A stretch of DNA of 20,432 nucleotides from a virus: positions 1 through 20,432 of the IMG/VR virus record IMGVR_UViG_3300025646_000491. One strand, 5' to 3'. Below the pieces are notes generated by a model, which saw nothing but the letters and a program-made list of their open reading frames with translations, was not told the DNA's origin and searched no databases. The position numbers were made by a program, and so were the translations under genes. Below are positions 1 to 20,432 of this stretch, in pieces (position 1 is the first letter of the stretch; every line of letters begins with the position of its first letter).

Positions 1-1908
1 CATACTCTTGTTGCGTTTACAGCTTGGCGAGGTTGCACTACATCTGGCAGTCCTATTGGGGCAACGCAAACCTCCTCAAACGGAAGTAACGGAACCTCTA
101 TCAGCGCAACCGGTCTTACTACCACCCAGGCGAACTCCATGGTGGTTGCGACCTGTTGTGCTGGGGATAATGCAAGTTCCAGTGGCTGGACCAACTCTGA
201 TCTGGCCTCTATTACACATGCCGGGGATGCAACTACAACTTCTGGTTCCGACGGTGCAATTAGCGTAGCTTACGGAATTAAGACTTCTGTTGGCGCTGTC
301 GGTGCAACGACCGCTACACGGTCCGCAAGTGAAGAGCAGGCTAATATTGTTATTGAATTGCTTGAGCCGGCACCTACAACTCAGACTAAAACTGCTAGTG
401 CGGATGCTAAACTTCAGAAAGCTGGGCTGACCAAAACGGTTAGTTTAGGGGCTATTCTGCAAAAACAAGGGGAAATAAAAACAGCTTCACTGGATTCAAT
501 ACTTATAAAAATCATCACTAAAACTGTCAGCATGGACAGTTATCTGGTAGATTCACTCGACCCTGATTCTTTTGATGGTGGGGCTGGCGTTACCTTCGAT
601 AATGATCCAGGGCCGTTTGATCCTCCGATTACATTGACGGCCCTGGCGGATGCATTACTGCAAAAACAGATTACCTCTACAGCTTCCCTTGATGCAATGC
701 TGCAGAAACTGGGTTTAACCAGAACTGCCGTTGCAGACGCTTTGTTGCAGAAACAAGGACTGACTCTGAGCTTTAGTTCGGACGCGTTACTGAAAGCGCT
801 GGGGGTAGAGCTAGCTTCTTCGATTGATGCATTGTTGCAGAAAGCGGAAACGCAGACCGCACAACTGGATGCTCTATTGCAAAAGGTTGAGTTGTTAACC
901 GCTGCCTATGACGCTGTCTTGCAGTATCCTGGTCTTGAAGTTTCTGCTTCTACTGATGCGCTGTTGCAAAAGCTGGTAACAGCAACCGTTGGTTTTGATG
1001 CGGAGATTATCGCTGGAACTAAAACCGTTGAGACGGCCCTGGATGCCCTGCTGCAAAAACTGCAAAGCGTTCAGACGGGCCTTGATGCGATCTTGCAGAA
1101 GTTAGTAACAGTTACTGCATCTGCAGATGCACTGCTGCAAAGGCAGGCTACGACCACTTCTGGTGCAGATGCAGTGCTGCAAAAATCTGTGCTAGCGGCA
1201 GCGAGTTTTGGGGCTATGCTGCAAAAGTCTGGTATCCAGTTAACCGCATCCCTCGACGCAAAGCTTCAGCAGAACGTCTTGACAACTGTTGCCACAGACG
1301 CTATGCTGCAGAAAGTAGAAAATCAAAGCGTTTCTGTAGGGGCGTTATTGCAGGGAACGGTTTTGGTTTCTACTGCTATGGATGCTTTTCTTAGCGATCT
1401 CCGGGCAGTTACAGCACAATTTAATGCGTTGCTGCAAAAGACTGTTGTAAGAACCGCATCCACAGATGCAATGCTTCTAAAAACCGTAGGATTAACGGCA
1501 TCGTTTGGCGGTCTTGCCCAGAAGTTGAATTTGACTGTGGGCGCCAGTGCAGATGCAACGCTGCAAAAGGTTGAGCAAGTAACCGCAGCTCTTGATTCAA
1601 TCCTCGGAAAGAATGTATTGCTAACCGCGGGTTTGGATTCCCAACTCGTTCAACAGGTTTTAAAGCAAGTAGGGCTTGACGCCCTTCTATTTCGACAGGT
1701 GGTTTTGGTAGGAAGCCTTGATGCTTTCCTCATTTACACTCCCGGACATTGGCCAGCGGAAGGCGAACTTTCAGAGGGCTGGAGTGGGGAGACAGAAAAG
1801 GTAAATGGTTGGACAGCCGAAACCTCTCAGTCATCAACATTTTCTCCTGAATCCGAGGCAGACAGTACCTGGATTCCTGAGGACAGTAAAGAGAACACTT
1901 GGCACTAG
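1..1908 (+). CDS. Tail/fibre protein with ~30 short tandem repeats (5' partial)
   Basis: The reading frame is open to the first base, so the N-terminus lies outside the window; the ATG at 139 is internal. The visible protein has three parts. The first ~125 residues are Ser/Thr/Gly/Ala-rich and beta-like, resembling the Ig-like or carbohydrate-binding-like domains of phage tail proteins (motif around GDNASSSGWTN). Next come about 30 copies of a 14-15-residue repeat with core DAxLQK, interrupted once by an Asp/Gly/Phe-rich insert at 556-627. The last ~43 residues form four Trp/Phe-centred decapeptides (GWSGETEKVN, GWTAETSQSS, and so on). There is no signal peptide to judge. I infer an extended virion appendage or fibre protein because it sits beside other tail genes. 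The repeats are diverged in sequence, so this is an old expansion. Receptor and exact location are unknown. Confidence 0.7.
   Translation, partial: HTLVAFTAWRGCTTSGSPIGATQTSSNGSNGTSISATGLTTTQANSMVVATCCAGDNASSSGWTNSDLASITHAGDATTTSGSDGAISVAYGIKTSVGAVGATTATRSASEEQANIVIELLEPAPTTQTKTASADAKLQKAGLTKTVSLGAILQKQGEIKTASLDSILIKIITKTVSMDSYLVDSLDPDSFDGGAGVTFDNDPGPFDPPITLTALADALLQKQITSTASLDAMLQKLGLTRTAVADALLQKQGLTLSFSSDALLKALGVELASSIDALLQKAETQTAQLDALLQKVELLTAAYDAVLQYPGLEVSASTDALLQKLVTATVGFDAEIIAGTKTVETALDALLQKLQSVQTGLDAILQKLVTVTASADALLQRQATTTSGADAVLQKSVLAAASFGAMLQKSGIQLTASLDAKLQQNVLTTVATDAMLQKVENQSVSVGALLQGTVLVSTAMDAFLSDLRAVTAQFNALLQKTVVRTASTDAMLLKTVGLTASFGGLAQKLNLTVGASADATLQKVEQVTAALDSILGKNVLLTAGLDSQLVQQVLKQVGLDALLFRQVVLVGSLDAFLIYTPGHWPAEGELSEGWSGETEKVNGWTAETSQSSTFSPESEADSTWIPEDSKENTWH
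385..1746 (+). repeat. ~30 tandem 14-15-residue protein repeats (DAxLQK core)
   Basis: In the translated frame the unit is roughly T-x-T-A-S-x-D-A-x-L-Q-K plus two or three variable residues. Clear units include TSTASLDAMLQKLG, TRTAVADALLQKQG, TQTAQLDALLQKVE and TVTASADALLQRQA. I count 30 units, mostly 14 residues and some 15, with one ~24-residue insert after the fourth. Codon choice differs between units (ctgcaaaaa, ttgcagaaa, cttcagaaa), so the repeat is maintained at protein level and is not a recent DNA duplication. The regular period suggests a solenoid or an extended fibrous rod. Confidence 0.85.
1777..1905 (+). repeat. C-terminal Trp/Phe decapeptide repeats
   Basis: Four consecutive units of ten residues follow the pattern [G/T]-[W/F]-[S/T/I]-x-E-x5: GWSGETEKVN, GWTAETSQSS, TFSPESEADS and TWIPEDSKEN, then TWH and the stop. 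Similar W-x-x-E strings occur at the ends of other phage virion proteins (from memory). They form the extreme C-terminus here and may be an interaction tail. Confidence 0.7.
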
Positions 1909-4901: not shown

Positions 4902-5542
4902 TGCTATTCATGGGATTACCTGAAGCGAACCGGAGGAGGCTTGATTTCATCGAGTCGCTTTCCGATGCAGTTTCGAGGAGTACCTATACGCTTACTCCGG
5001 CCTCCGTCTCATCTGGCAATAAGATTCTAGTTGTAACTATCGGCTCAGCTGATCGAAACGACAATAACGCAGAGGTTCCAACGGGAGTTACTTACAATGG
5101 AACCAGCATGACAAAAGCTGTTGATGGGGTCGGTACCAGTTTGAGTGATGTAGCTGGGGCTATCTATTACCTTGAAACCTCAGATAATACAGGGAACTTG
5201 GTTATCTCCTTTAGCGATACACAGTCAGGGGTTGGGGTATTCGTTTATGAGGTTACTGCTAATGGAGCAGCGGCACCTACCCAAGCAGTGTTTGAAGGAA
5301 ACCTCAGTCCAACGACCGTAAGTTTTTCTGGAAAGTCCGGAGAGGTTTATGTAGGAATACACATAGATAATCTGGTCGATCCTATGTCAGGGCCTATGGT
5401 CGATGATGGGACAATCCAAACAGCTGACGATGGAGCAGAGGACAGATTCGTTCGCGGTATGCACAAAAACAATGCAGCACCGGTGTTTGAACAGGATATT
5501 GCCGGAGCCGCCGCTGATTATTTGTACGCCTCTTGGAGTTAA
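4901..5542 (+). CDS. Beta-sandwich-like tail/fibre protein
   Basis: A 213-residue protein. After a short N-terminal helix (EANRRRLDFIESLSD), the rest is beta-rich with the motif GVTYNGTSMTKAVDG at about 66-80, then AIYYLETSDNTGNLVISFS. These are hallmarks of a repeated Ig-like/lectin-like domain seen in phage tail proteins. The second half (VFVYEVTANGAAAP ... YLYASWS) has the same general order as the visible N-terminal part of the fibre at base 1, suggesting two proteins sharing a fold. The ATG overlaps the preceding stop (TAATG), with GGAG 8 nt upstream. A later ATG at 4910 is possible but less well placed. Likely role is host-surface binding or fibre decoration; this is inference. Confidence 0.55.
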   Translation: MLFMGLPEANRRRLDFIESLSDAVSRSTYTLTPASVSSGNKILVVTIGSADRNDNNAEVPTGVTYNGTSMTKAVDGVGTSLSDVAGAIYYLETSDNTGNLVISFSDTQSGVGVFVYEVTANGAAAPTQAVFEGNLSPTTVSFSGKSGEVYVGIHIDNLVDPMSGPMVDDGTIQTADDGAEDRFVRGMHKNNAAPVFEQDIAGAAADYLYASWS

Positions 5543-5544
5543 TT

Positions 5545-5946
5545 ATGCAACAATACAAAGATTTTGAAGGAAACGTTGGGTCCACTCGTTTGAAAGGTGA
5601 GAGTGGACGGTTGTATGGCACCCCAGCGCTATACTCTCCGGGGGAATTAGCAGCAATGTTGGCCGACGGAATTGTGGAGTATACTCCTCCACCGCCTCCT
5701 CCTCCTGTAGTAACCATTCCCTCCCACGTCACCCGTTATCGCTTGAAGCTGGCCCTTCAACATTTCGGTAAGTGGGATGCTGTTAGCGCCTTTATCAAAG
5801 CTGATCCTGAGCTGTATGATACCTGGCTGATTATCAACGATGTTGCTCGAAGCAATCCGTTGATTACACAGGGGTTGACCGCCCTGGGAATCACAGCAGA
5901 AGAAGCCGATCAAATCTTCCTTTACGCTGACTCACTGGAAATCTAA
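5545..5946 (+). CDS. XkdW-like small tail protein with polyproline linker
   Basis: A 133-residue protein. The N-terminal ~45 residues (QQYKDFEGNVGSTRLKGESG) are followed by a run of seven prolines, then a helical domain starting VTIPSHVTRYRLKLALQHFG and ending EEADQIFLYADSLEI. The helical part has the pattern of XkdW-type small phage tail proteins: R-x-x-L-K-x-A-L, then a D-x-W-x-I segment, a Leu-rich helix and D-x-I-F-x-x-A. I chose ATG 5545 rather than the TTG at 5533 because TTGGAG itself forms the Shine-Dalgarno (GGAG, 5535-5538), overlapping the previous gene's stop. Position among fibre genes suggests a fibre chaperone or baseplate part. Confidence 0.6.
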   Translation: MQQYKDFEGNVGSTRLKGESGRLYGTPALYSPGELAAMLADGIVEYTPPPPPPPVVTIPSHVTRYRLKLALQHFGKWDAVSAFIKADPELYDTWLIINDVARSNPLITQGLTALGITAEEADQIFLYADSLEI

Positions 5947-7532
5947 TGCCACTCATTCGCGTTCGAGACTTGGATACTTTCGGCATTGTCCGGGACACCC
6001 CCTCGGACCAATTGCCTCCACTTGCTTTTTCAGAGGGCAGTAACATTCGCTTTCTGGATGGTGTTGTTCAGCGGTCAAAGGGATGTATTGATACCTATGG
6101 CAGCATTGGGGTCGATCCCACATACCTCCTTCCATGGGAAGTTAGCGGGACTCCATATTGGATTTATGCCAGCCCTGCAAAAATTCGTCTGACCGATGGA
6201 ACCACTGACAGTGATGTTACCAGAGCGGTCGGCGGAGATTATGCTGCCGGAGCCTTGCCTTTGTGGAACGGCGGGGTTCTCGGAGCGGTCCCCATTTTGA
6301 ATAATGGAGTGGACGTACCGCAGTCATGGGATGGAGCTACCTCTAAGTTTGTCAATCTTCCGAATTGGCCGGCAAGTACAACTGCCAAGGTTCTGCGGAT
6401 TTTCAAACAGTTTATAATCGCCCTGAATATTACAAAGTCTGGGACGAATTATCCAACATTAGTAAAGTGGAGTCAGCCGGCCGCCCCCGGAACCGTACCA
6501 ACCTCCTGGGACGAAACCGATGATACAAAGGATGCCGGAGAATATTCGCTGTCCGAGACAACGGGAGAGCTTATTGATTGTATGCCGCTTGGCGATATCA
6601 ACGTCGTTTATAAGTCAGACTCTATTTGGATGCAGCGTTTCCAGGGCGGCAAGTTTATCTTTCAGTCCTCGAAACTTTTCCAACGTCATGGATTGCTCGC
6701 GCAGAATTGTGTCCAGGAGTTTGACAAAAAGCATTTCTTTGTCTCCCGCGGAGACTTAATGATTCACAACGGTACGGTTCCTGAGTCCGTTGCTGATGGT
6801 AAGATTCGAAGAGCTTTCTTTGCTGAGCTTGATGATACCAACTACGAGCAAGTAATTACCGTCGCTAACGAGCAGGATAATGAAATCTGGGTGTGTATCC
6901 CTATGGTTTCCAGTGCAGGTCTATTGGTGAAGGCGCATATCTGGAACTGGAAAACAGGGAAATGGGGGGAAATGGAGCTTCCCAATCTTTCATTTCTAGC
7001 CTCCGGTATCATCGTCGATCCCTCCGCTTCAACCACATTTGATAGCGACTCCGGCACATTTGATGGCGGAGAGTCTGGACCCTTCAGTGGCGCCCTTGTC
7101 GGAAATAAAACGCCTTCGATCATGGGCGGGTTAGCTGGAGCTAGCCGGCAGCTGTATGAAATGAATCAAGGGCACACCTTTGACGGAGTTTCTTATGAAT
7201 CATATATACAGCGAAGTAACCTCGCGGTCATCGCCCAGAAACATGACGGCTCGTTTATCGTTGATCCGAAGCGTCATAAACAGTGTAATGAAGTTTGGCC
7301 GCTTGTTGATGCTGATCCTGGTGTCACTCTCAACATTTATGCTGGGAGTAGTGATACTATCACCGGGGACGTGGACTGGGACGGACCTCTTAGCTTTGAT
7401 CCTTCTGTGGATGAAAAAGTTGATCCTCTTGTAAGTGGAAGATATTTGCATTTTAAGTTCGCTGTGGTTGGGAATGGTAAATGCAACTTTCATGGATTTG
7501 ACTTCAACGTAGAAGATCTGGGGATGTACTGA
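5946..7532 (+). CDS. Tail nozzle / DNA stabilisation protein (P22 gp10-like)
   Basis: A 528-residue protein with the layout of podoviral tail nozzle or 'phage stabilisation' proteins, which plug the portal-adaptor channel and form a beta-propeller hub. The signature N-terminus is APL-type: LPPLAFSEGSNIRFLDGVVQ (about 23-42), meaning 'non-redundant position plus direction of the genome-encoded profile'. Later segments include VYKSDSIWMQRFQGG (~221-235), LLAQNCVQEFDKKHFFVSRGDLMIHNG and the WVCIPM ... KAHIWNWKTGKWGEMELP blade. Near residue ~365 there is an Asp/Gly/Phe-rich insert (TFDSDSGTFDGGESGPF). Start and stop both overlap neighbours (TAATG, TGATG). In virions of this type it would sit between the adaptor ring and the fibres encoded just upstream. 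Confidence 0.7.
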   Translation: MPLIRVRDLDTFGIVRDTPSDQLPPLAFSEGSNIRFLDGVVQRSKGCIDTYGSIGVDPTYLLPWEVSGTPYWIYASPAKIRLTDGTTDSDVTRAVGGDYAAGALPLWNGGVLGAVPILNNGVDVPQSWDGATSKFVNLPNWPASTTAKVLRIFKQFIIALNITKSGTNYPTLVKWSQPAAPGTVPTSWDETDDTKDAGEYSLSETTGELIDCMPLGDINVVYKSDSIWMQRFQGGKFIFQSSKLFQRHGLLAQNCVQEFDKKHFFVSRGDLMIHNGTVPESVADGKIRRAFFAELDDTNYEQVITVANEQDNEIWVCIPMVSSAGLLVKAHIWNWKTGKWGEMELPNLSFLASGIIVDPSASTTFDSDSGTFDGGESGPFSGALVGNKTPSIMGGLAGASRQLYEMNQGHTFDGVSYESYIQRSNLAVIAQKHDGSFIVDPKRHKQCNEVWPLVDADPGVTLNIYAGSSDTITGDVDWDGPLSFDPSVDEKVDPLVSGRYLHFKFAVVGNGKCNFHGFDFNVEDLGMY

Positions 7533-10502: not shown

Positions 10503-11421
10503 TCTGAGTTTCTTGACTGGAAATGTAGCCCCCGGACAGGAGGTTGCAGCGCAGGATTACTCATTTAACAATGGACGCTTTCAGCCCAATACTGCCCCTG
10601 ACGTAGAGCAGGAAAAACGAAAGGCGGGGTGGAAACAGGCGTTGAGTGGGTTGGCGGACGATCCAGATGCACTGATGACTCTGTTTGTTCTGGGCAATAC
10701 CATGGCGCAGGGAGGAAACGCTGGACAAGGAATGCAGAATGCAATGCTGTATCAAGGACAACTGGCAAAGTTGCGGCAGGCGCAGGCTGACCGTCAACGG
10801 AGCCACAGGGTCGAGGACCAAAAGCTGGCCATGGAGGCTCGCCGAGTAACCGCAACCGAGGGTAATGTCGACGTTGCCAGAACTCGAAATCGTTTGCTGG
10901 AGGAAGAAGGTGTATTGAACAGGAAAAAGTTTGAAGCAGGAGCCGCTGGACGGAAAGCCGATACAGCGAGACTGACTGCGATGGCCCGGAAATATGAGGC
11001 AGAGACCAAACAACTGGACACCGGTATGGGAGCTAAGCCTGGGGCTAATCAACAGTTGATTACCTTCATGGCAAAGAAAGCTATGGATCGTGGCGGTATG
11101 GCAGCCGATGGTACGAAGTTTGGTTCCGAGAATGAGGCTGTGCAATACTACTTTAACAAAGTGATATCGCAAGGGAAAGGAAAAACTGCACAACAGTTCC
11201 GGGATGAAATCATGTCGTCTGTGCTGTCGCAGGGAACGGCCACTCAAAAGGATATCAACGAACTTACCGCTTTGCTGGATCAGACCTTTCCCGGTGCGGC
11301 CGCGGATAATCCCGGGACAGCTACGGACGCGCCCGTACAAGTTAAGACTATTGAGGAGGCGCTGGCCTTGCCGAAAGGCACACAATTCCTTGATCCTAAC
11401 GGAGTGTTGAGGGTACGATAA
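10495..11421 (+). CDS. Coiled-coil virion protein of the ejection block
   Basis: A 308-residue protein. After a short N-terminal segment it has a Gly/Met-rich helix (DDPDALMTLFVLGNTMAQGG, ~55-75), then a long charged helical region (about 85-185, with many Arg, Gln, Glu and Ala) likely to form a coiled coil. The C-terminus ends VKTIEEALALPKGTQFLDPNG, a motif common at the ends of phage internal or ejection proteins. Start: GGGAGG just before an ATG that overlaps the preceding gene; stop overlaps the next start (TAATG). The gene pair with the giant protein downstream resembles the T7 gp15-gp16 order. The role is inferred from this. Confidence 0.55.
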   Translation: MADLSFLTGNVAPGQEVAAQDYSFNNGRFQPNTAPDVEQEKRKAGWKQALSGLADDPDALMTLFVLGNTMAQGGNAGQGMQNAMLYQGQLAKLRQAQADRQRSHRVEDQKLAMEARRVTATEGNVDVARTRNRLLEEEGVLNRKKFEAGAAGRKADTARLTAMARKYEAETKQLDTGMGAKPGANQQLITFMAKKAMDRGGMAADGTKFGSENEAVQYYFNKVISQGKGKTAQQFRDEIMSSVLSQGTATQKDINELTALLDQTFPGAAADNPGTATDAPVQVKTIEEALALPKGTQFLDPNGVLRVR

Positions 11422-14400
11422 TGAGTGATTGGGACCAGTTTGCTAAAGCAGAAGAGAACTCTTGGGATCAATTCCAAGTAGTATCTCCAAACGAGGAACC
11501 ACCCGCTGAAGAATCCGATAATGAAAGTTCAGTTGGAGGGTCCTTCAAGAGAGGGCTTCTTCGTGCGCGTCAGGGTTTGGAATTCCTGGGGGTGCCAACT
11601 GATTTGGAGGGCGCAGCCAAGACGGTAATGGGCGGAAGGGTTTTGGGTAATCCAGACGCTCAACGTAAAGGCATGGAAACGGAAAAGCAAATTCGCGCAA
11701 TTCCGCAGAATGAGACTATGCAGAAGGCATATAAAGCTGCGTCGAAAGAAGAAGGGCTTGTTGATACAGCCGGAGCTTTTATTGAAAATGTTTGGGAATC
11801 TGACGAAAAGCTACGGTTCTTTACTGAAACTGCAGCAGAGCTGATTCCTCAAATTGGTACAATGGCTCTCGGTACCAAAGGTATGGGAGCGTTGACAGCA
11901 GGAGGAAAGATTGCCACCCTTTCGCCAAAAGCTAAGGCAGCGATTAACCTACTTGGCGGCGGTGGTGCAAGCTCGTTTCTGAATACCTATGGCCCGAATG
12001 TTGCTGAAGCGCTGGAGAAAGGACTGGAGTTTGATCAAGCGCAGGCAAGGGCTGCGTTGCAGTCGGCCGCGCAGGGTGGTGTCGATGCGTTGACATCTGC
12101 TGTTATTCCCTTCAAGATAGGTCCGAATCAGTTTACCAATATCCCCGCACAGACACTGCTGCAAATCCTCGGAGGTGGTACTGGCGAGGCCGTTCGCAGC
12201 AAGGTTGTCGGAGAAGAAGTTAACAATGTTGATGTTGTAGTGGAAGGATTGCTGGAGGCTATCGGCCTGCCGGGAGATTTCCTTGCTGCTGCATGGGCAG
12301 GTGCTTGGGATAAAGTCGGGACGAAAGCAGATGGCGAGTCAGATAATGATCTACCTCCGATGGAGGACGTTGAAACGGAGTCGGAAGCTACAAGAGATAT
12401 TCCACAGAGTCAGATTGAAGCGGGCCTCGAGCGGATTAACGCTGCTGAAACGGTGGAGGAAAAACTTAAAATAGCTACGGAACTGGCAGGGGAATTTCAG
12501 GAAAAGGTTGCTATTGATCCTGCAATGGAGCAGCCTTTGGTTCAAGGGGTTGACCCTGACGCGCAACAGGAAACTCAATGGCCAACAACCGTTCAACAGT
12601 ATGACGACCTTGGAGTGCAATTTGGTAGCCGCACAGGGGATGGAACTGCTGATGAACAGTGGACGGCAGAAGAACTTGATACGAAACTGGAATTGATCGA
12701 CCGTCTGGTTGCTGAGAATGAACTCAATAATGAAGATGCCTTGAGGATGCAGTCGGAGCTGCTAAAGGTTCAGGAAGGCGTGAAGGGCATTCGAGCTGCT
12801 CTGGAGGACGGAGAGTTCCGGATGACAACTCCAGCGGCCCGTCGCGTTTGGAACGGACTCTTTGCCCGTGATCTCGGGACCGTCAAGAAAAGTATGGAAC
12901 CCGGAGATGTCGTTGCTGTTGGATTCGGCAGAGCGATGCTGGATACTACATCCGCCGGTGATAAGCAGATCGAGAACGGCGTTAAGCTGGCCATGGGAGC
13001 TATCCATAACTGGAATAAAATGTTCAACCCAGGGGCGAAGGTTGTTCTGGTTGAGGGAAATACTTTCGATCAAAGAAACTCTCATCTTAACAACCCTATG
13101 GGATCGTTGAGTGGAGGAAAAGATGGCATCCATTATATCTCCCTGCAGAAAACCTTGACCCAAGGGCATTATGCGAAAGCGCAAATTTACTCCGTTCTCG
13201 CCCATGAGTATGGACATCTGCTGATTAATGAAAGATTTAAGACAGCAAGCTCAGCGGTCAAAGCTGGATTGATTAATGGATATAGGAATTGGCTGGCCGA
13301 GCGGGTTATTAATAAGGATACTGAAAAGGTTGGAGATTTAAAAGAAACTCGTTTGAATCCTTTTGGGGAGGATCGAGGAGAGCGTCATAGACTGAACAGA
13401 CCTTTATGGAGTAACTCTTTTTTCGATGGACAAGAACTGGTTAATCAACGTCCGAGGGATTATTACCTTTCCTTTAATGAATATCTGGCGGAAAGTATCT
13501 CGACGGTTTTGACGAAGGAGCATACTGTTCGTGGCCCCGTTCGTCACTGGTTGAAGAAAACGGAGACCATGCTGCGGAGGTTTTTCAAATCCGTTGCTGG
13601 ACAGAATATCGGTGTTACAAAGTCTGTCGACGATTGGATGGCATCGTTAAGGTTTCAGACTCTGGCAGAACAGCTGGAACAACTCAATGCACAGGAAAAT
13701 GTTGGCGCAGCTTTAACGTCAACAAACGAAAAGCTGGTTTCAATGGGATTGAAAAAGCTCGCTAAAGGAATAGAGAAGGTTACTGGAGCATCACTCAACC
13801 TTCCACCTGAAACAGAAAGTGGACTGGAGGTTAATGATACCCCAGCAAAGAGCATCGCAAGCTTTAATGGGTTTATGAAGTGGATGCTAACGCTGACACA
13901 GATTGAACAGGAAAATGCGGATGTTCCCGGGGTACTGAAATACGTCGAGGGAATTCGTAAGTGGTGGGCGGAGAAAGGACGGTTAACCCACCTCGCTGAT
14001 CAGCGGATTCGTGAGTTGTCTGCCTTGTCGAAAGCGGATCGACACGCTTTTTCACACTTTGTCCATGAAGCTACGATTAAGAGTGATGAAGTTGGTCGGC
14101 GTTTAAATGGGGATGAGCTGCAAGAACTGATGTCCAAGTGGCCAATGGGTGAACAGGCACAACGGTTGATTGAGGAAACACAAGCTGATTTCCATATGAT
14201 CTTGGACGAGATTTTCAGTGTTCTTCGGGCCGACCTTGCACGGAGGTATGGACACCTATCTCCAAATGATCGGGATGCGGTCATCCAACAGAAAACACAA
14301 CAGTTGACAAAAGAACTGCAATCGTTGAAGAACCATAACTACTGGCCCCTGAATCGCTTTGGTCAGTATTGGGTGCAAGCGAAGGCTCCAAAGGATATGA

Positions 14401-16520
14401 AGTTTCAGGGTAGAAACTTTAAGGAAGGAGAGGTGTTTCTGTTTGAAACCTTTAATACTGAGAAGGAGCAAAGAGCACGACAGCAGCAGCTGAAAAAATC
14501 CTACGGAGATCGGATTGGTGGAGGAAAGTTTTCCGAAGTGGAAATGACCTTTCAGGGAATGCCACCACAGTTGGTAGGTAAGCTGAAGCAATTGATGCTG
14601 GAAGGCCTGGAAATTAACGATCAAATGACGGAGGAGGAGAAGGCGACCGAACGTGGGAAGATGGATGAGCAGCTGAAACACCTGGACGATATGCTGCATA
14701 ACCTTGCACCGGGACAGAGTTTTAAACATCGACTACAAAGGAGGAAAGGAACTCCTGGCTATGACATGGATGCCATTCGAGGATATGCGTCGTATATGCA
14801 AAATGCTGCAAATCATATTTCCAGGATCAAGCATTACGCTGAGTTGATGGATTCCATCGGAGAATTGCGGACATTCAGAAAGCAAGTCGAAGATACTGAT
14901 ATTGGAAACAAAGAAGCAGGATTGGAAGATTTTCTCCGCCGGCATTATCAGTACTCAATGAACCCTGGAAATGAATGGGCGAACCTGCGTGCTCTGGGTT
15001 TCCTTTGGTACCTCGGGTATGTTCCCAAGTCAGCGTTCGTGAACTTGACGCAGCTTCCGCTGGTAACGTATCCTCATCTGGCCGCAAAGTTTGGGGATGT
15101 AAAAGCAGTCGGAGCGCTTGCGCGGGCAATGGGAGATATTAAGAAGGTATGGACATCTGGTACTGAACTGGAACCACATTTACGCGCTGCGGTTCAGGCC
15201 GGTGTGGAAGCTGGATTCTTGGAAGAGTCCTTGGCGACAGAACTGGCAGGTATGGCTGAGGGGAGTAATCTGCAACGGTTGCTTCCAGGAAGTTTTCTCA
15301 AGTCTGAGCGTGCCGCCAGGGGGATTCGTCAGGTCTCTCACTTAGGTGCCTGGATGTTTCAACAAACGGAGAAGATGAACCGTTTGATTACATTCACTGC
15401 TGCGTTTCGCCTTGAGATGGAAAACTCGGGAAATGCAGAGACGGCGTATAAGGTAGCTCGAGATGCCGTTGAAAATACACAATATGAGTATGCGCGGTGG
15501 AATCGTCCTCAGTTGATGCGGGGACGGAAATCGAGTCTGTTCTTGTTTAAGATGTATTTGCAGAATACGCTGTACTTCGCTGCAAGAAACCCAGGAAGTG
15601 GAAGGTACTTGGCAATGTCATTTTTGCTGGGTGGACTTTCCGGTATGCCGTTTGCAGATGACCTCATGGATCTGCTGAAAATCTTCACTTCACTGTTGGG
15701 CAAACGCTTTGGCGTATCCGATCCATTGGTCGATATGGAAAAGGATTTCCGTGAGATGATGACCGGAATAGGCGTTAGTCCCGATCTGTTATTGCACGGC
15801 GCATCACGCCATACGGGCGGCATATTCGATCTATCCGGGTCATTAAGCATGGGGCAGGTCATACCGGGGATTGAAGGATTATCAGATGTCGTTACGGGCC
15901 GACGGGATTTTGCACAGGGACTGGAGTCAGCCGTGGAAGATGTTAGTGGCCCGTTGTTTGCGGTGCCATTACAGATGATGCGCGCGATGGCTTCAAAGTC
16001 TCCAGATAGATGGAGAGAAACCGAGAAGATGCTGCCAAAGGCTCTGTCAAATATAAGCAAGGCAATACGGAGAGGAACAAGAGGATATGAAACTTCATAT
16101 TCAGGGGCAGATATCTTAGCCCTGGATTATGATCCCACTGATCCGATCCATATGGCTGAACTTATCGGGCAAGCCCTGGGATTTGTCCCCACAAGAGTCT
16201 CGGAGGAAATGGATAAACGCTGGGCTATGAAGCAATCCCATTTATACTGGAGTGCCCGGGCAACTCATTTGCGGATGCAGCATAACGTGGCACGAAAGGC
16301 AGAGGACAGGGAAGCGATTGCTGATGTAAAGGAAGCTATCCGTCGGTTTAATCAGCAGGTTCCGAATGGAGAGTATCGGATTACCGGAAAGGAACTGTCG
16401 GATTCGTGGAAAGCGAAGAAGCGAAACTGGAAAAAGGAAAGCCAGGGCCGAGGGATTACCAGGGCCCAGGATAAGTTGTTTAAGGATTATACAGAGGCTT
16501 GGACAGAGGACGCACCCTGA
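11421..16520 (+). CDS. Giant DNA-ejection protein with PLxRFG motif and metallopeptidase-like domain
   Basis: A 1699-residue protein, comparable in size to gp16-type internal virion proteins that form the trans-envelope DNA-ejection channel. N-terminus: two WDQF motifs (residues 4-7, 15-18), then a Gly-rich hydrophobic stretch (about 139-190, plus 240-300) that may contact membranes. Middle: HEYGH at 595-599 in LAHEYGHLLINERF, with NEYLAE at 686-691 downstream, the layout of a HExxH zinc peptidase with a distal Glu ligand. Centre: YWPLNRFGQYW with PLxRFG at 976-981, the hallmark of a family of giant phage proteins. C-terminal third: 'FLWYLGYVPKSAFVNLTQLP' and a hydrophobic segment from about 1371, both typical of those proteins. 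No lytic transglycosylase (SLT) motif is evident. Its 3' end overlaps the convergent gene by 34 bp. Confidence 0.75.
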   Translation: MSDWDQFAKAEENSWDQFQVVSPNEEPPAEESDNESSVGGSFKRGLLRARQGLEFLGVPTDLEGAAKTVMGGRVLGNPDAQRKGMETEKQIRAIPQNETMQKAYKAASKEEGLVDTAGAFIENVWESDEKLRFFTETAAELIPQIGTMALGTKGMGALTAGGKIATLSPKAKAAINLLGGGGASSFLNTYGPNVAEALEKGLEFDQAQARAALQSAAQGGVDALTSAVIPFKIGPNQFTNIPAQTLLQILGGGTGEAVRSKVVGEEVNNVDVVVEGLLEAIGLPGDFLAAAWAGAWDKVGTKADGESDNDLPPMEDVETESEATRDIPQSQIEAGLERINAAETVEEKLKIATELAGEFQEKVAIDPAMEQPLVQGVDPDAQQETQWPTTVQQYDDLGVQFGSRTGDGTADEQWTAEELDTKLELIDRLVAENELNNEDALRMQSELLKVQEGVKGIRAALEDGEFRMTTPAARRVWNGLFARDLGTVKKSMEPGDVVAVGFGRAMLDTTSAGDKQIENGVKLAMGAIHNWNKMFNPGAKVVLVEGNTFDQRNSHLNNPMGSLSGGKDGIHYISLQKTLTQGHYAKAQIYSVLAHEYGHLLINERFKTASSAVKAGLINGYRNWLAERVINKDTEKVGDLKETRLNPFGEDRGERHRLNRPLWSNSFFDGQELVNQRPRDYYLSFNEYLAESISTVLTKEHTVRGPVRHWLKKTETMLRRFFKSVAGQNIGVTKSVDDWMASLRFQTLAEQLEQLNAQENVGAALTSTNEKLVSMGLKKLAKGIEKVTGASLNLPPETESGLEVNDTPAKSIASFNGFMKWMLTLTQIEQENADVPGVLKYVEGIRKWWAEKGRLTHLADQRIRELSALSKADRHAFSHFVHEATIKSDEVGRRLNGDELQELMSKWPMGEQAQRLIEETQADFHMILDEIFSVLRADLARRYGHLSPNDRDAVIQQKTQQLTKELQSLKNHNYWPLNRFGQYWVQAKAPKDMKFQGRNFKEGEVFLFETFNTEKEQRARQQQLKKSYGDRIGGGKFSEVEMTFQGMPPQLVGKLKQLMLEGLEINDQMTEEEKATERGKMDEQLKHLDDMLHNLAPGQSFKHRLQRRKGTPGYDMDAIRGYASYMQNAANHISRIKHYAELMDSIGELRTFRKQVEDTDIGNKEAGLEDFLRRHYQYSMNPGNEWANLRALGFLWYLGYVPKSAFVNLTQLPLVTYPHLAAKFGDVKAVGALARAMGDIKKVWTSGTELEPHLRAAVQAGVEAGFLEESLATELAGMAEGSNLQRLLPGSFLKSERAARGIRQVSHLGAWMFQQTEKMNRLITFTAAFRLEMENSGNAETAYKVARDAVENTQYEYARWNRPQLMRGRKSSLFLFKMYLQNTLYFAARNPGSGRYLAMSFLLGGLSGMPFADDLMDLLKIFTSLLGKRFGVSDPLVDMEKDFREMMTGIGVSPDLLLHGASRHTGGIFDLSGSLSMGQVIPGIEGLSDVVTGRRDFAQGLESAVEDVSGPLFAVPLQMMRAMASKSPDRWRETEKMLPKALSNISKAIRRGTRGYETSYSGADILALDYDPTDPIHMAELIGQALGFVPTRVSEEMDKRWAMKQSHLYWSARATHLRMQHNVARKAEDREAIADVKEAIRRFNQQVPNGEYRITGKELSDSWKAKKRNWKKESQGRGITRAQDKLFKDYTEAWTEDAP

Positions 16521-17743
16521 GGTTGGGAAGCGGTTAGCTGCTCGTTATAGTATTTCTCACTGACGAGCAGCACCCTTCCTTGGGCGTTGATGAGCCGGAT
16601 CATACCGGCATCCATACAGGTTTTTATTCCTTCCTCAATCTCCCTGGATGAAAGTGTTCTTGACAATTCTCGCACCAGCACAGACCGGTCGACAGCATTG
16701 TGTTTACATACCACTCCATACACCGCTTCGGTAAATCTGGCGGAATCTGACTGACCGATAAGCTGGAACACCTTGGGCATCTCTGCTTCAAGGTCCGTGA
16801 TAATTCTTCCTGCTTCTTCGAGATCCTCCTTTTCAATAACCAAGTCAGTGTGGCGCGCAGCAGCGAGGATAATTGCAAGTTTATGTATGTGCGTTTGCTT
16901 ACGGGCTTTGTATCCAGCCTTTTGATTGTCTTGCTCAGTATGTCCTCGAGTATCCGCGTAATGTTCTGCATACCAATCCTCTCCATATTGTAAGGCTTCT
17001 GGAGTTAATTTGTATTCTCCGAAAAGCTGCGAAATCATTTCCAGGTCATGGACCAGATCTTTTTCCAGTTCCTTTAATTCGGTTGGAACGTGACGGGAAG
17101 GGTAAGCAACAAGATGGCGTTTCTCCTCCGCGTAAACGAAAACACAACGGGAGGTAAAACCACCGCCTACCATGTACTTAGGAAAGTTCTCGGCAATCCA
17201 GGCTGGAGTGGTACAAGCATTCATGTTAATCCAGGGATTAACGATAAGATCACTTCCCTGAGTCTTCGTCACCTTCTCCCACGTTCCCAACTGTCCGTCC
17301 CACAGGCTCACCATTACATCCACCATCTCCCGATCCCTCGGGTCCATGAAGGTTCCGAACTCCGAACTGGATATTGTGATGCAACTCATTGGGTGACCGA
17401 GTCCGTCTGGACCTGGAACCTCCTCCGTGCTTTTCGCTAAGGCGTCTGTCAGCGCCTGCCACGTAACAGCATCTGGGCCAAACCTCACGTCCGGCACCTG
17501 CTTTAATAAACGCATTGCGATTCCGGCAGTGGTTGACTTCGATACAATACCCGGAGGGGCTACAAACACAATATAAAAGTTTGGAGTCCATTGAAAATAT
17601 ACCTGATCGATCCAAACACGACGACGGAGAGCGCCGGCCACAGCGCTAACCCCAGCCCAGAAATGAAACTTCTCCGGGGCTTCGGAATACTTAGTGTATT
17701 GGAGGTAAGACTCTAGCCAGTTTTTCAAACGGCGTTCGGGCAT
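16487..17743 (-). CDS. DUF3987-like P-loop ATPase (replication helicase candidate)
   Basis: A 418-residue protein resembling phage DUF3987-type ATPases linked to primase-helicase functions. Visible elements: a P-loop-like VAPPGIVSKST at ~61-71 (GK replaced by SK), a Walker B-like strand ending in SSSEFG (~125-130), a sensor-like NMNACTTPAWIAENFP (~173-188), and an arginine-finger candidate GGGFTSRC with Arg199. The C-terminal ~70 residues (YGVVCKHNAVDRSVLVRELS onward) look like a winged helix. AGGAG at 17750-17754 supports the ATG. Hairpin copy B sits just upstream. The gene is the last of the leftward replication operon and overlaps the giant ejection gene tail to tail. Whether it drives unwinding cannot be told from sequence. 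Confidence 0.65.
   Translation of the reverse strand: MPERRLKNWLESYLQYTKYSEAPEKFHFWAGVSAVAGALRRRVWIDQVYFQWTPNFYIVFVAPPGIVSKSTTAGIAMRLLKQVPDVRFGPDAVTWQALTDALAKSTEEVPGPDGLGHPMSCITISSSEFGTFMDPRDREMVDVMVSLWDGQLGTWEKVTKTQGSDLIVNPWINMNACTTPAWIAENFPKYMVGGGFTSRCVFVYAEEKRHLVAYPSRHVPTELKELEKDLVHDLEMISQLFGEYKLTPEALQYGEDWYAEHYADTRGHTEQDNQKAGYKARKQTHIHKLAIILAAARHTDLVIEKEDLEEAGRIITDLEAEMPKVFQLIGQSDSARFTEAVYGVVCKHNAVDRSVLVRELSRTLSSREIEEGIKTCMDAGMIRLINAQGRVLLVSEKYYNEQLTASQPQGASSVQASV
16526..16579 (+). terminator. Hairpin at the convergent junction, possible terminator
   Basis: An exact 9-bp inverted repeat, GCTGCTCGT (16537-16545) and ACGAGCAGC (16563-16571), is flanked by an outer GGAAG/CTTCC pair (16526-16530, 16575-16579). 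It starts 6 nt after the stop of the giant ejection gene and lies inside the 3' end of the opposing ATPase gene. No U tract follows, so termination would be factor-assisted or weak; the structure could also be chance under coding constraint. Confidence 0.35.
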
Positions 17744-17756
17744 TAGAGGCTCCTAT

Positions 17757-17794
17757 AAAGTATGATGATATTATTCTAGATATGATCGTACTTT
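17757..17794 (-). promoter_or_regulatory. 38-nt conserved hairpin, copy B
   Basis: Plus-strand arms are AAAGTATGATGATAT (17757-17771) and ATATGATCGTACTTT (17780-17794) with an 8-nt loop. Fourteen of 15 positions can pair. On the minus strand the element begins inside the TAA stop of the DUF1937 gene and ends two bases before AGGAG of the ATPase gene, exactly as copy A at 2671-2708 is placed on the plus strand. The first 17 bases of the plus-strand comparison, ATAAAGTATGATGATAT, are identical between the copies. An operator, phage promoter or RNA-level control element is possible. Confidence 0.75.
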
Positions 17795-18158
17795 ACTCAT
17801 CACCCTCATCAAACCGTTCAGGAATTTCCATAAAGTCAAAGAAGAATACTGGGATGGAAAGCTGTTTTGCCAGGGCAATTTCCTGTGCAATACCTTTGGA
17901 ATCTTCCCAGCCGTGCAGACGAACAACCCAGAGTTCAGATGCTTTTGCCAGGATAGCATAATCAATACGATGCCAGAAATCAAACGTTCTCGGCATATCA
18001 AATTTTGCTGCAAGCGGATGGTTATGAACAATGGGAGAGAAAACATTATATCCCCGTTTAAGGGCTTCTGCTGTATGCTCCTCCGCCATGTCATAACGGT
18101 GCTCCATTCTTCTTGGATCGGAGTCTGAATAAGGTGTCGCAAGGTAAATGAAAGACAT
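17793..18158 (-). CDS. DUF1937 family protein (nucleoside deoxyribosyltransferase-like)
   Basis: A 121-residue protein with the DUF1937 pattern: IYLATPYSD at 4-12, VFSPIVHNHPLA at 39-50, FWHRIDYAIL at 61-70, ELWVVRLHGWEDSKGIAQEI at 75-94. The fold is related to nucleoside 2-deoxyribosyltransferases, where SxGxxxE carries the catalytic Glu; here this is S87, G89 and E93. It may therefore act on nucleosides or nucleotides in phage DNA metabolism; the actual substrate is unknown. GGAG sits 7 nt upstream of the ATG. The 56-nt gap between it and the polymerase stop (18159-18214) holds nothing recognisable beyond this ribosome binding site. Hairpin B overlaps its stop codon. Confidence 0.75.
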   Translation of the reverse strand: MSFIYLATPYSDSDPRRMEHRYDMAEEHTAEALKRGYNVFSPIVHNHPLAAKFDMPRTFDFWHRIDYAILAKASELWVVRLHGWEDSKGIAQEIALAKQLSIPVFFFDFMEIPERFDEGDE

Positions 18159-18214: not shown

Positions 18215-19012
18215 CTATACTTCCCACGGCACCTTGGCTACATCACCCCAAGATACTTCTGAAATTTCCAGTCCTACTGGGATGACCAGAGGATCGTCAT
18301 AGGGTACGGTGACGAGGAGCTGTTCTCGAATCTGTGGCCGTATCCAGGGGTCATACTTTTTCTCATACTGAAAGACAACAGAGTCATGAACTTGAAGAAG
18401 CATTTCGACCTGAGGGAGATTCTCATCCAGGTTCGCAAGGCCAATGTTGGTGACGATAGCAACAGTTGACTGCGGTACCCAAGCCAATGCTTCTGGTAGA
18501 ATTCCATCAATCCTGTCAAAGTAGATACGGTGGAAGCCGAACGGGTTAACAACCCTGCGGTCGAGCATAAGCTGTTGTTCGGTTCTGTCGTGCCACCTTT
18601 TGATCCCAGGGTGAGTAGCAAACCAGCGCTTTTGTGCATCGTCAGCTTCACGAATAGTGAGACCACAGTTAATAGCCATCGTTCTTGCTGACCCTCCATA
18701 GTTTGTTCCATGTACGAAGGCTTTAGCAAACTTCCGCTGTTTCGCATAGCGTTTAGCATGTTCTGGATATTCGGGATGCGTCGGAATAAGTTCTTCCTCA
18801 GGGGGAAGTTCCATACGCTTGATTTCAAGTCCGTTTGTAATGTGCATATCAACGCCATCCCGGAGTCTCCGTTTAAGGTCAGCATCATCTGCCTCCCAGA
18901 CTACCACTTGCAGGTCTGCCCTGTCAAGATCAACGTCGGCAATGATGTAGCCAGGATCGGGAATGAACAGCTTACGGATGTTGGGGAGTTGAGGAGTATA
19001 GAAACCTGTCAT
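18215..19012 (-). CDS. Family A DNA polymerase, palm/fingers core only
   Basis: A 265-residue protein containing the three polymerase motifs of family A (Pol I). Motif A: IIADVDLDRADLQVV at 23-37, metal-binding Asp D28, and D33 at the position of the E. coli steric-gate Glu. Motif B: RKFAKAFVHGTNYGGS at 93-108 (R93, K97, Y105), with His101 where E. coli has Phe762. Motif C: LLQVHDSVVF at 205-214, metal-binding D210. The thumb, N-terminal palm and 3'-5' exonuclease, normally 300+ residues upstream, are missing. The start is firm: GGGGAGG lies 5 nt before the ATG and an in-frame TAA at 19025-19027 blocks any extension. The exonuclease/thumb may be encoded separately to the right of the window. 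Highly likely to be replicative, but its independent activity is uncertain. Confidence 0.8.
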   Translation of the reverse strand: MTGFYTPQLPNIRKLFIPDPGYIIADVDLDRADLQVVVWEADDADLKRRLRDGVDMHITNGLEIKRMELPPEEELIPTHPEYPEHAKRYAKQRKFAKAFVHGTNYGGSARTMAINCGLTIREADDAQKRWFATHPGIKRWHDRTEQQLMLDRRVVNPFGFHRIYFDRIDGILPEALAWVPQSTVAIVTNIGLANLDENLPQVEMLLQVHDSVVFQYEKKYDPWIRPQIREQLLVTVPYDDPLVIPVGLEISEVSWGDVAKVPWEV

Positions 19013-19013
19013 G

Positions 19014-19232
19014 TTAACCTCCCCTTACGGTAATCATTGCGCAGAAACCTTTGTCCTCAGACGCGGCTTCGATCCAGGCCATACACTCACAGTGAATGCA
19101 GTTAGCTCCGACCCAGGTTATTTGCTCTCTAATGCTGACAAACCTGTTCCCGCAAGTGCCATCTTCCTCCACCAGTCTGGCAAACGGACACCATTTCTTT
19201 TCAGCTTCTTCTCTTGTCATTGGTGCAGGCAT
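19014..19232 (-). CDS. Small Cys-rich protein, possible metal binding
   Basis: A 72-residue protein with six cysteines at 15, 27, 45, 48, 50 and 64 (KKWCPFAR, GTCGNRF, NCIHCECMAW, GFCAMI). I recognise the order 'KWCPFAR ... C-x2-C-x-CMAW ... GxC' from small phage proteins of unknown function; zinc or iron-sulphur binding is plausible. ATG overlaps the preceding stop (TAATG) with GGGGGAG upstream. Its own stop is one base before the polymerase ATG, and its last codons carry the polymerase ribosome binding site, so the two are coupled. It may be a polymerase or helicase cofactor, but nothing proves this. Confidence 0.65.
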   Translation of the reverse strand: MPAPMTREEAEKKWCPFARLVEEDGTCGNRFVSIREQITWVGANCIHCECMAWIEAASEDKGFCAMITVRGG

Positions 19233-19459
19233 TAGTGCTCCCCCTTATCCGGTCTAGCAAGGTCAGTAAGAAATTTTTCAAGGATATCCTCGATCATCCG
19301 AATGCATTCCTCTCCTACACTATCCGGAGAACTGTCGGAAGTAAGTGAAATCTCCGCTCGCCGTGAAAGGACTGGATAGAAGAGGCGCTCTTGATCTTCT
19401 GTATATTCCCTATTCCCCAAAGCGATGTTAATCATAATAGTATCTGGAACCTTAGACAT
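19232..19459 (-). CDS. Hypothetical 75-residue protein
   Basis: A 75-residue acidic soluble protein (MSKVPDTIMINIALGNREYT at the start, helical EECIRMIEDILEKFLTDLAR near the end). No family recognised. I chose the ATG at 19459 over the TTG at 19462: AGGAGG at 19470-19465 is 5 nt upstream of the ATG, and this ATG overlaps the helicase stop as TGATG. The last helicase codons (Arg-Arg-Arg) therefore double as the ribosome binding site. It sits between helicase and the Cys-rich protein in a fully coupled operon, suggesting a replication accessory role. Confidence 0.6.
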   Translation of the reverse strand: MSKVPDTIMINIALGNREYTEDQERLFYPVLSRRAEISLTSDSSPDSVGEECIRMIEDILEKFLTDLARPDKGEH

Positions 19460-20432
19460 CAACGCCTCCTTTCAAAACATTTAAAGGTATCGACAGCTCG
19501 GGTAACGGCGGTGTATAGCCATTGCTTCCGTTCCTCCCTCTTCCCCCGCCAGTTGAACATACCATCGTCGATCAGGATAACGTCATTGAACTGTGATCCT
19601 TGAGCTTTATGGACAGTGACGCTGTATGCAAAATCCATTTGCTGCTTTCCTTTGAACATATAGTAAGGGATTTCATCGGTGACACCGGGATGAGTGTATT
19701 CATCAAAGGCAGCGGAAATGATTGGCAAACCCTCATATTCTTTGTCCAACTCTGAGATACAATCCAGGTACATCTCAAAGTTTGTTGGAGTTCCATCCGG
19801 CCCTTCTTCATACTCCGCATCTGCCAGAGCCTCAAACATCAATCCGTTAAAGACGCCAGCTCTCTTATCATTACGGAGCGCGATAAGGCGATCTCCTTTC
19901 TCTGGATAGGCAGTGGTGAACCCGAGGAGTTTCCGAAGATGGCGGTTGCTTGCCCTGCGTGTCGCATTCTTTCCGACCAGGATTTGTGATGCTTCAAGGA
20001 GCGCTTCGTTGGTACAAGCACTAGCCGCAAAGCGCCCTGCTGTCTTCGAGAAGTGTATCGGGATGCTACCGTGCTCTCTAACTGCCATAGAAAGAGCGAT
20101 GATAGGATTATCCTTTTCCTGTCGGCGAATGTCAGTGAGCATGGTGTCGGGTGTTCCCCCAGTAAAGTACCCCTCACCCGTAATAGGAGGCAGTTGCCCT
20201 GGGTCTCCAAGCACAAGAATCGGAACCTTAAAGGAGAGGAGGTCTTGGGCCATCTCCTCCCCAACCATCGAACATTCGTCCAGGATAAGAAGGCTTGCGT
20301 CCTTGAGCGGAGACTCCGGGTCGAGTTCAAACGATGGCTCTTTGAGGGTTCGGAGTTCCTGTGTGATGACAAGCGCATCGGCCGGCGAGGCCTTACGGCG
20401 TAGCGTTTCAAGTTCCTCGATCCGTTCCTCAT
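19459..20432 (-). CDS. SF1 helicase, RecD/Dda-like (N-terminus outside window)
   Basis: The frame is open to the right edge (first whole codons read EERIEELETLRRKAS), so Walker A and motif Ia lie beyond the window. Visible motifs, in order: motif II LLILDECSM (20292-20266), motif III LVLGDPGQLPP (about 20214-20182), a motif IV-like LTDIRRQ, motif V YSVTVHKAQGSQF (about 19635-19590) and motif VI WLYTAVTRA (about 19530-19500). This is the order of SF1B RecD2/Dda-type 5'-3' DNA helicases. It probably unwinds DNA for the polymerase encoded downstream. The ATG at 20268 is internal, since motif II begins before it. Its stop overlaps the next gene's start (TGATG). Confidence 0.85.
   Translation of the reverse strand, partial: EERIEELETLRRKASPADALVITQELRTLKEPSFELDPESPLKDASLLILDECSMVGEEMAQDLLSFKVPILVLGDPGQLPPITGEGYFTGGTPDTMLTDIRRQEKDNPIIALSMAVREHGSIPIHFSKTAGRFAASACTNEALLEASQILVGKNATRRASNRHLRKLLGFTTAYPEKGDRLIALRNDKRAGVFNGLMFEALADAEYEEGPDGTPTNFEMYLDCISELDKEYEGLPIISAAFDEYTHPGVTDEIPYYMFKGKQQMDFAYSVTVHKAQGSQFNDVILIDDGMFNWRGKREERKQWLYTAVTRAVDTFKCFERRR

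Follow-up and report, generated by a model that had tools for sequence, protein, structure and literature searches.

The C-terminal half of a family A DNA polymerase as a separate phage gene, and the recurrent cut that defines it among relatives

Replicative DNA polymerases are usually single chains, and a break through the palm beside motif A should be severe. Split phage polymerases are already known, both in family B (gp43 of Aeromonas phages) and in family A (the Methylophilales, or OM43, phages MEP401 and MEP402). In the T4-like Aeromonas phages 25 and 44RR the replicative polymerase is made as two polypeptides, as appears to be the case at the locus described here, although gp43 is a family B enzyme; in phage 25 a homing endonuclease lies between the two halves, and gp43A and gp43B co-purify with polymerase activity (PMC2988022). 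The split NrdA of phage Aeh1 and the T4 topoisomerase gp39/gp60 are likewise essential phage enzymes encoded by separate genes and functional as assembled subunits, but they are other enzymes, for which homing endonuclease insertion is the documented cause (PMC2988022). In MEP401 and MEP402 two ORFs, separated by a small one, encode the family A polymerase (PMC10580990), but theirs is a different PolA lineage, cut elsewhere: the 387-aa N ORF starts at the exonuclease, with no UDG-like region seen, and runs through the IRxxF segment (..IKTLFLSRYGE), and the C ORF opens at motif A (MILNADAK), which puts the break about 15 residues beyond the one described here.

Among annotated phages, those most closely related to our locus are Vibrio phage vB_VspS_VS-ABTNL-3 (MF497422), Microcystis phage Mel-JY34 (PP438425) and phage ctMlz233 (MW202489). 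VS-ABTNL-3 shares with it the UDG-exonuclease-family A polymerase family (UDG-PolA), the cut point, the N half upstream and a DUF3987-like gene following the polymerase (PVS_29, PVS_28 and PVS_27), but a 184-aa gene rather than a helicase lies between PVS_29 and PVS_27, and its C half is only about 40% identical to ours; we found no paper discussing this split polymerase. The polymerases of Mel-JY34 and ctMlz233 are homologous over both halves and are also followed by a DUF3987 gene, but each is a single ORF of 780–811 aa with a loop of 13–19 residues at the cut site. What is new is that an exact cut recurs within this UDG-PolA phage group and that replication genes sit between the resulting halves.

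The window analyzed here is an entire IMG/VR record, a linear fragment of 20,432 bases that ends inside a Dda-like helicase gene. On its minus strand the helicase, which runs off the contig, is followed by a 76-aa ORF, a 72-aa ORF, the polymerase gene (hereafter polC), a DUF1937 gene and a DUF3987 gene (Table 1). The helicase stop and the probable start of the 76-aa ORF overlap (TGATG), the 76-aa and 72-aa ORFs likewise overlap, stop to start, and one base separates the 72-aa stop from the polC ATG. From this spacing, the genes form an operon with probable translational coupling, including that of the 72-aa ORF to polC. A DUF3987 gene also follows the polymerase in relatives L002, L006, L007 and others (L numbers denote loci recovered in the scans below), and the window protein is 57–61% identical to the gene after polC in L006, L007, L013 and L017. 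On the plus strand, a 1699-aa protein (window 11421-16520) resembles very large phage proteins over their C-terminal part (phrog_11358; DarB-like antirestriction, phrog_10089) and is probably a virion-packaged protein. An ORF at window 1-1908 contains numerous near-repeats of the form T-A-S-x-D-A-L-L-Q-K and probably encodes a repetitive tail or fibre protein.

Table 1. Minus-strand features at the right end of the window (window coordinates).
Feature	Position	Strand	Evidence or remark
Dda/RecD-like SF1 helicase, C-terminal 323 aa, off contig	19459..20430	(-)	phrog_325, E 8e-58
76-aa ORF, probable ATG at 19459	19232..19462	(-)	without Pfam or PHROG match
72-aa ORF between helicase and polC	19014..19232	(-)	without Pfam or PHROG match; no homologue among fetched loci
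Start region of polC: TAA 19025-19027 overlaps Shine-Dalgarno AAGGGGAGGT	19013..19027	(-)	read directly
polC, C-terminal half of UDG-exonuclease-family A DNA polymerase, 265 aa	18215..19012	(-)	PF00476 139-362; fold; 65% identity to L006 polC
Content of polC: end of palm, fingers, motifs A, B, C	18215..19012	(-)	
DUF1937 / nucleoside 2-deoxyribosyltransferase-like protein after polC	17793..18158	(-)	PF09152, E 1.8e-18; phrog_355, E 6.6e-19
DUF3987 / primase-helicase-like protein	16487..17743	(-)	phrog_14296, E 6.7e-76

The original prediction placed a family A DNA polymerase in the polC ORF, and this is borne out by a match to Pfam DNA_pol_A (PF00476; 71.7 bits against a cut-off of 34.3, profile positions 139–362 of 381) and by sequence comparison, in which E. 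coli Klenow also matches. The exonuclease and thumb are absent, as predicted, and so are the first palm strands; polC does not hold thumb, palm and fingers in a single chain, and in relatives the remainder is a second gene. The motif A Asp is D28, 27 residues past the start Met and at the predicted distance from it; motif B reads R93-K97-H101-Y105 and motif C Q207-V-H-D210-S. Residues D28, R93, K97, Y105 and D210 align with E. coli D705, R754, K758, Y766 and D882, so that the claim of intact motifs A, B and C holds for the catalytic positions but not for every letter, as motif C is HDS rather than HDE and position 762 (E. coli numbering) is His. The canonical His-Asp-Glu, and Phe, Tyr or Leu at 762, are absent, but these are variant rather than disqualifying positions. 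An HDS-type motif C occurs in 159 of 161 family matches, and His at the 762 position, the type to which polC belongs, in 109 of 110 family members counted. Nasko et al. distinguish Phe, Tyr and Leu types of viral PolA at 762 (PMC6302109); we found no description in the literature of the His762 type, which is further to that typing.

The predicted gene start, with its in-frame stop and strong ribosome binding site, proved real. The in-frame codons before the polC ATG (19012) are TAA GGG GAG GTT AAC, which contain a strong Shine-Dalgarno sequence, and the TAA four codons ahead leaves no alternative start. The protein opens at an LPN(I/V)RK segment with its own start codon (MTGFYTPQLPNIRKLF), preceded by the Shine-Dalgarno sequence and the in-frame stop.

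A single-sequence scan yielded no close relatives of polC, but a profile scan of IMG/VR recovered 80 loci and an N-half scan 80 more, and the two halves were then located with a profile of each. Leaving the window aside, one identical cut point, between NLQNIPKGD and LPNIRKLFIPDPGY, is shared by at least 23 phage contigs whose C halves are distinct, among them VS-ABTNL-3, whereas both halves lie in one ORF in 112 loci by the two-half profiles; as the scans were biased by similarity, these counts do not represent population frequencies. Comparison with full-length relatives, as the original prediction had proposed, located the split point: the N profile ends at 548–551 and the C profile starts at 2–4. 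The same cut is found in two MAG contigs, L230 (Dokdonella) and L231 (Ignavibacteria). In all 23 contigs and both MAG contigs the N half is found on the strand of the C half and upstream of it, at a distance of -4 to 1817 nt in the 23 contigs and up to about 1.9 kb when the MAG contigs are included; in nine contigs the halves abut or overlap (-4 to +7 nt). The relatives' N halves comprise a UDG-family domain, DNA_pol_A_exo1 (a DEDD exonuclease) and DNA_pol_A to profile position 133–135, which complements polC, beginning at 139. No separate C half that clearly matches the family and has enough flank was without an N half in its locus; L194, with a weak C-profile hit (27 bits) and no N half, was left out as a generic 657-aa polymerase. 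Related complete phages are 40–46 kb long.

Several features of the relatives' polymerases lie outside this shared cut. The UDG-family domain is fused to the polymerase N-terminus in the N halves (e.g., L090:3338-4981) and is degenerate in L013. Six loci are cut inside the N half, at profile position about 147 or 349: the cut at about 349, within or after the exonuclease domain, is recurrent (L016, L019/L021, L047, L052 and L193), and that at about 147, between UDG and exonuclease, was seen once (L083). In two one-ORF polymerases (L130:10687-12288 and L153:11669-13309) the C-terminal part is about 290–310 aa longer and DNA_pol_A matches in two stretches; no Pfam intein domain was called in the extra stretch, although an intein, or some other insertion near motif A/B, probably accounts for it.

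Within the window itself we found no N half. Searches with the N halves of Mel-JY34, ctMlz233, VS-ABTNL-3, L006, L007 and L090 (tblastn) gave no credible thumb or exonuclease sequence in any frame, a profile search of all window ORFs gave no credible N half, and the 1.42 kb from polC to the contig end holds no N half gene. A simple frameshift of an intact polymerase gene is excluded by the absence of N-half sequence from all window frames. An exact 30-mer from the right end of the window matched no other viral contig. With the helicase as query, a single-sequence scan led to three phages whose fetched stretches lack this polymerase, and a two-sequence helicase profile led to L193 and others. 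The 5.8-kb contig L090 carries, in order, a methylase, an 81-aa ORF, a 170-aa ORF, an N half terminating in ...NLQNIPKGGEK*, a 74-aa ORF and a helicase at the contig end, its own C half being off the contig. Its helicase is 62% identical to that of the window over 118 aa, and the overlap of the two contigs is 68% identical in DNA, which marks L090 as a relative and a different phage. L090 and the window therefore look like complementary fragments of one arrangement from different phages; as L090 has no C half on its contig, the gene order is a composite, most likely N half, helicase, 76-aa ORF, 72-aa ORF and C half. The N half of the phage studied here would then most probably lie upstream in the same operon, just past the contig end and beyond the Dda-like helicase. 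For this reason, the description of polC as a polymerase reduced to its catalytic core was misleading, since another gene of this operon most probably encodes what polC lacks.

We propose, with high confidence, that polC encodes the C-terminal subunit of a family A DNA polymerase that a tailed phage makes in two pieces, the N subunit being encoded upstream. The original suggestion of a polymerase split between two gene products gains support from the identical cut and upstream N half in the 23 contigs and two MAG contigs. The N subunit would comprise the UDG-like domain, a 3'-5' exonuclease, the thumb and the first palm strands, ending ...NLQNIPKGD/E, and the two polypeptides would associate after translation to give a single Klenow-like enzyme; the cut lies in a variable-length loop between two palm elements. 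In such an enzyme motifs A, B and C would come from the C half, and proofreading, the thumb and the R668-equivalent from the N half. We take the conserved Arg of GTETFRFSS in the N half to be this equivalent of E. coli R668.

The absence of the N half from this fragment could also mean that polC is a decaying remnant of a lost or replaced polymerase. We consider this very unlikely. In closely related split pairs, pS is about 0.68–0.84, saturated or nearly so, against a pN of 0.08–0.35 in both halves, and polC itself compared with that of L006 gives a pN of 0.26 with a saturated pS of 0.79; low pN against saturated pS indicates that strong purifying selection acts on the halves and maintains them as functional proteins. 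All catalytic and family-invariant residues are retained in polC, which also has a good ribosome binding site and tight coupling, and the same split form recurs in many phages.

The original prediction offered a second reading, a stand-alone mini-polymerase in which the 265-aa protein works alone without thumb or exonuclease, and we judge it highly improbable. Its own strong ribosome binding site fits such a protein, as does the confident fold predicted for the C half by itself (AlphaFold2, mean pLDDT 96.2), but residues 11–259 of the model superpose on Klenow 688–928 only (Z 21.7, rmsd 1.9). Alone, polC has neither a thumb nor the R668-equivalent and cannot form a normal primer-template cleft, and an upstream N half accompanies all other separate C halves that are clear family members with enough flank.

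In L013 a single in-frame TAA followed by an ATG lies between the halves. When the pair is read through the stop as one chain it is modeled with a mean pLDDT of 93.0, although confidence drops locally in the loop that contains the cut, and matches the M. smegmatis Pol1 large fragment over 543 residues (Z 35.3). The adjacent L013 pair is thus predicted to fold as one Klenow-like enzyme, a single-chain prediction that does not by itself prove docking of separate chains. From the relatives, the predicted fold and the gp43A/gp43B precedent, we infer that two chains assemble.

The gap between the halves holds diverse genes in relatives. Some are full-size replication genes: at the same cut site, L230 contains a ribonucleotide reductase large subunit of 603 aa (L230:3964-5772); in L121 a DnaQ-like exonuclease separates the halves; in L193 a helicase of the window helicase's family lies inside the polymerase at the other split site (N profile about 349). 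L007, with an HNH endonuclease, is the sole relative with an endonuclease between the halves, and the part of the gap covered by the window contains no endonuclease gene. The L231 gap (5234-5979) contains a ChlI/Lon-like protein and a Phd/YefM-type antitoxin-like ORF, and a Lon_C protein occurs in the L081 gap. The methyltransferase-like inserts of L006 and L042 form the only strong match between gap genes (61%). Common ancestry of the inserted genes was considered and rejected, the 72-, 76- and 74-aa ORFs having no homologue among the fetched loci.

These gap contents bear on whether a group I intron or split intein could join the halves into one normal polypeptide. Phage polymerase introns and split inteins are known (PMC6892783, MIJ3 PolB), the split PolA of MEP401 has been suggested to contain an intron (PMC10580990), and the HNH endonuclease in L007 would fit, but we regard such joining as extremely improbable. 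No Rfam match at gathering threshold was found in nine loci, and halves that abut or overlap in nine contigs leave no room for an intron. The N halves extend no more than a few residues past the polymerase sequence, and in most C halves that sequence is reached within about 20 residues of the start, so that neither the window nor most relatives have extra sequence at the ends of the halves that could accommodate intein parts; moreover, complete genes, here probably including a helicase, lie between the halves. That an assembly or sequencing artefact truncated a whole gene has negligible probability, as, although the window is a single metagenomic contig, its upstream 1.4 kb holds coherent coupled genes and N-half sequence in no frame, and the identical cut occurs in independent samples and in the isolate record of VS-ABTNL-3.

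The split forms do not make up a single clade. Holding the 15 split rows together in the phylogeny was rejected (AU p = 0.0009), and on the 137-row tree the split label must change 12 times or more, and well-supported branches force 4 of these changes, although long branches make exact counts unsure. This pattern indicates that the split was gained several times, was undone by re-fusion, or both. The loop at the cut point ranges from 6 to 25 residues in one-ORF relatives, a sign of tolerance at the site. In the abutting contigs the codons that end the N half (PKGDE, e.g., CCGAAGGGAGAAGAAG) form the probable Shine-Dalgarno sequence of the C half. Among unsplit genes, an SD-like match of at least 5 nt is present at the site in 32% of 102 genes, compared with 11% of background windows, and a 4-nt match in 76% compared with 37%; this enrichment is supportive, yet it is driven by the amino acids Lys-Gly-Gly.

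A ready ribosome binding site in a tolerant loop would explain, as a hypothesis, the repeated use of one point. Taking this further, it is possible, though on balance doubtful, that the NLQNIPKGD-LPNIRK loop is a recurrent, maintained fission slot, with conserved PKG(D/G) codons resembling a ribosome binding site, where replication genes lodge and where the split is selected, not merely tolerated. A stop and a nearby start arising in the loop would yield two translationally coupled subunits, and inserted genes would then be co-translated with the polymerase (the helicase here; elsewhere ribonucleotide reductase, DnaQ-like exonuclease, methyltransferase, Lon-like protease or HNH endonuclease). 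Insertion of a mobile endonuclease, as the HNH gene in L007 suggests, is another possible route to a split, but most gaps are without an endonuclease.

In this phage polymerase family the same precise point has been cut several times and the enzyme has stayed divided over long divergence, while relatives keep one chain. This amounts to a natural experiment in how a polymerase tolerates fission, for which the possible gains include regulation, swapping of the proofreading half, and a landing slot for cargo genes. A split of the polC type also provides a natural design for split DNA polymerases.
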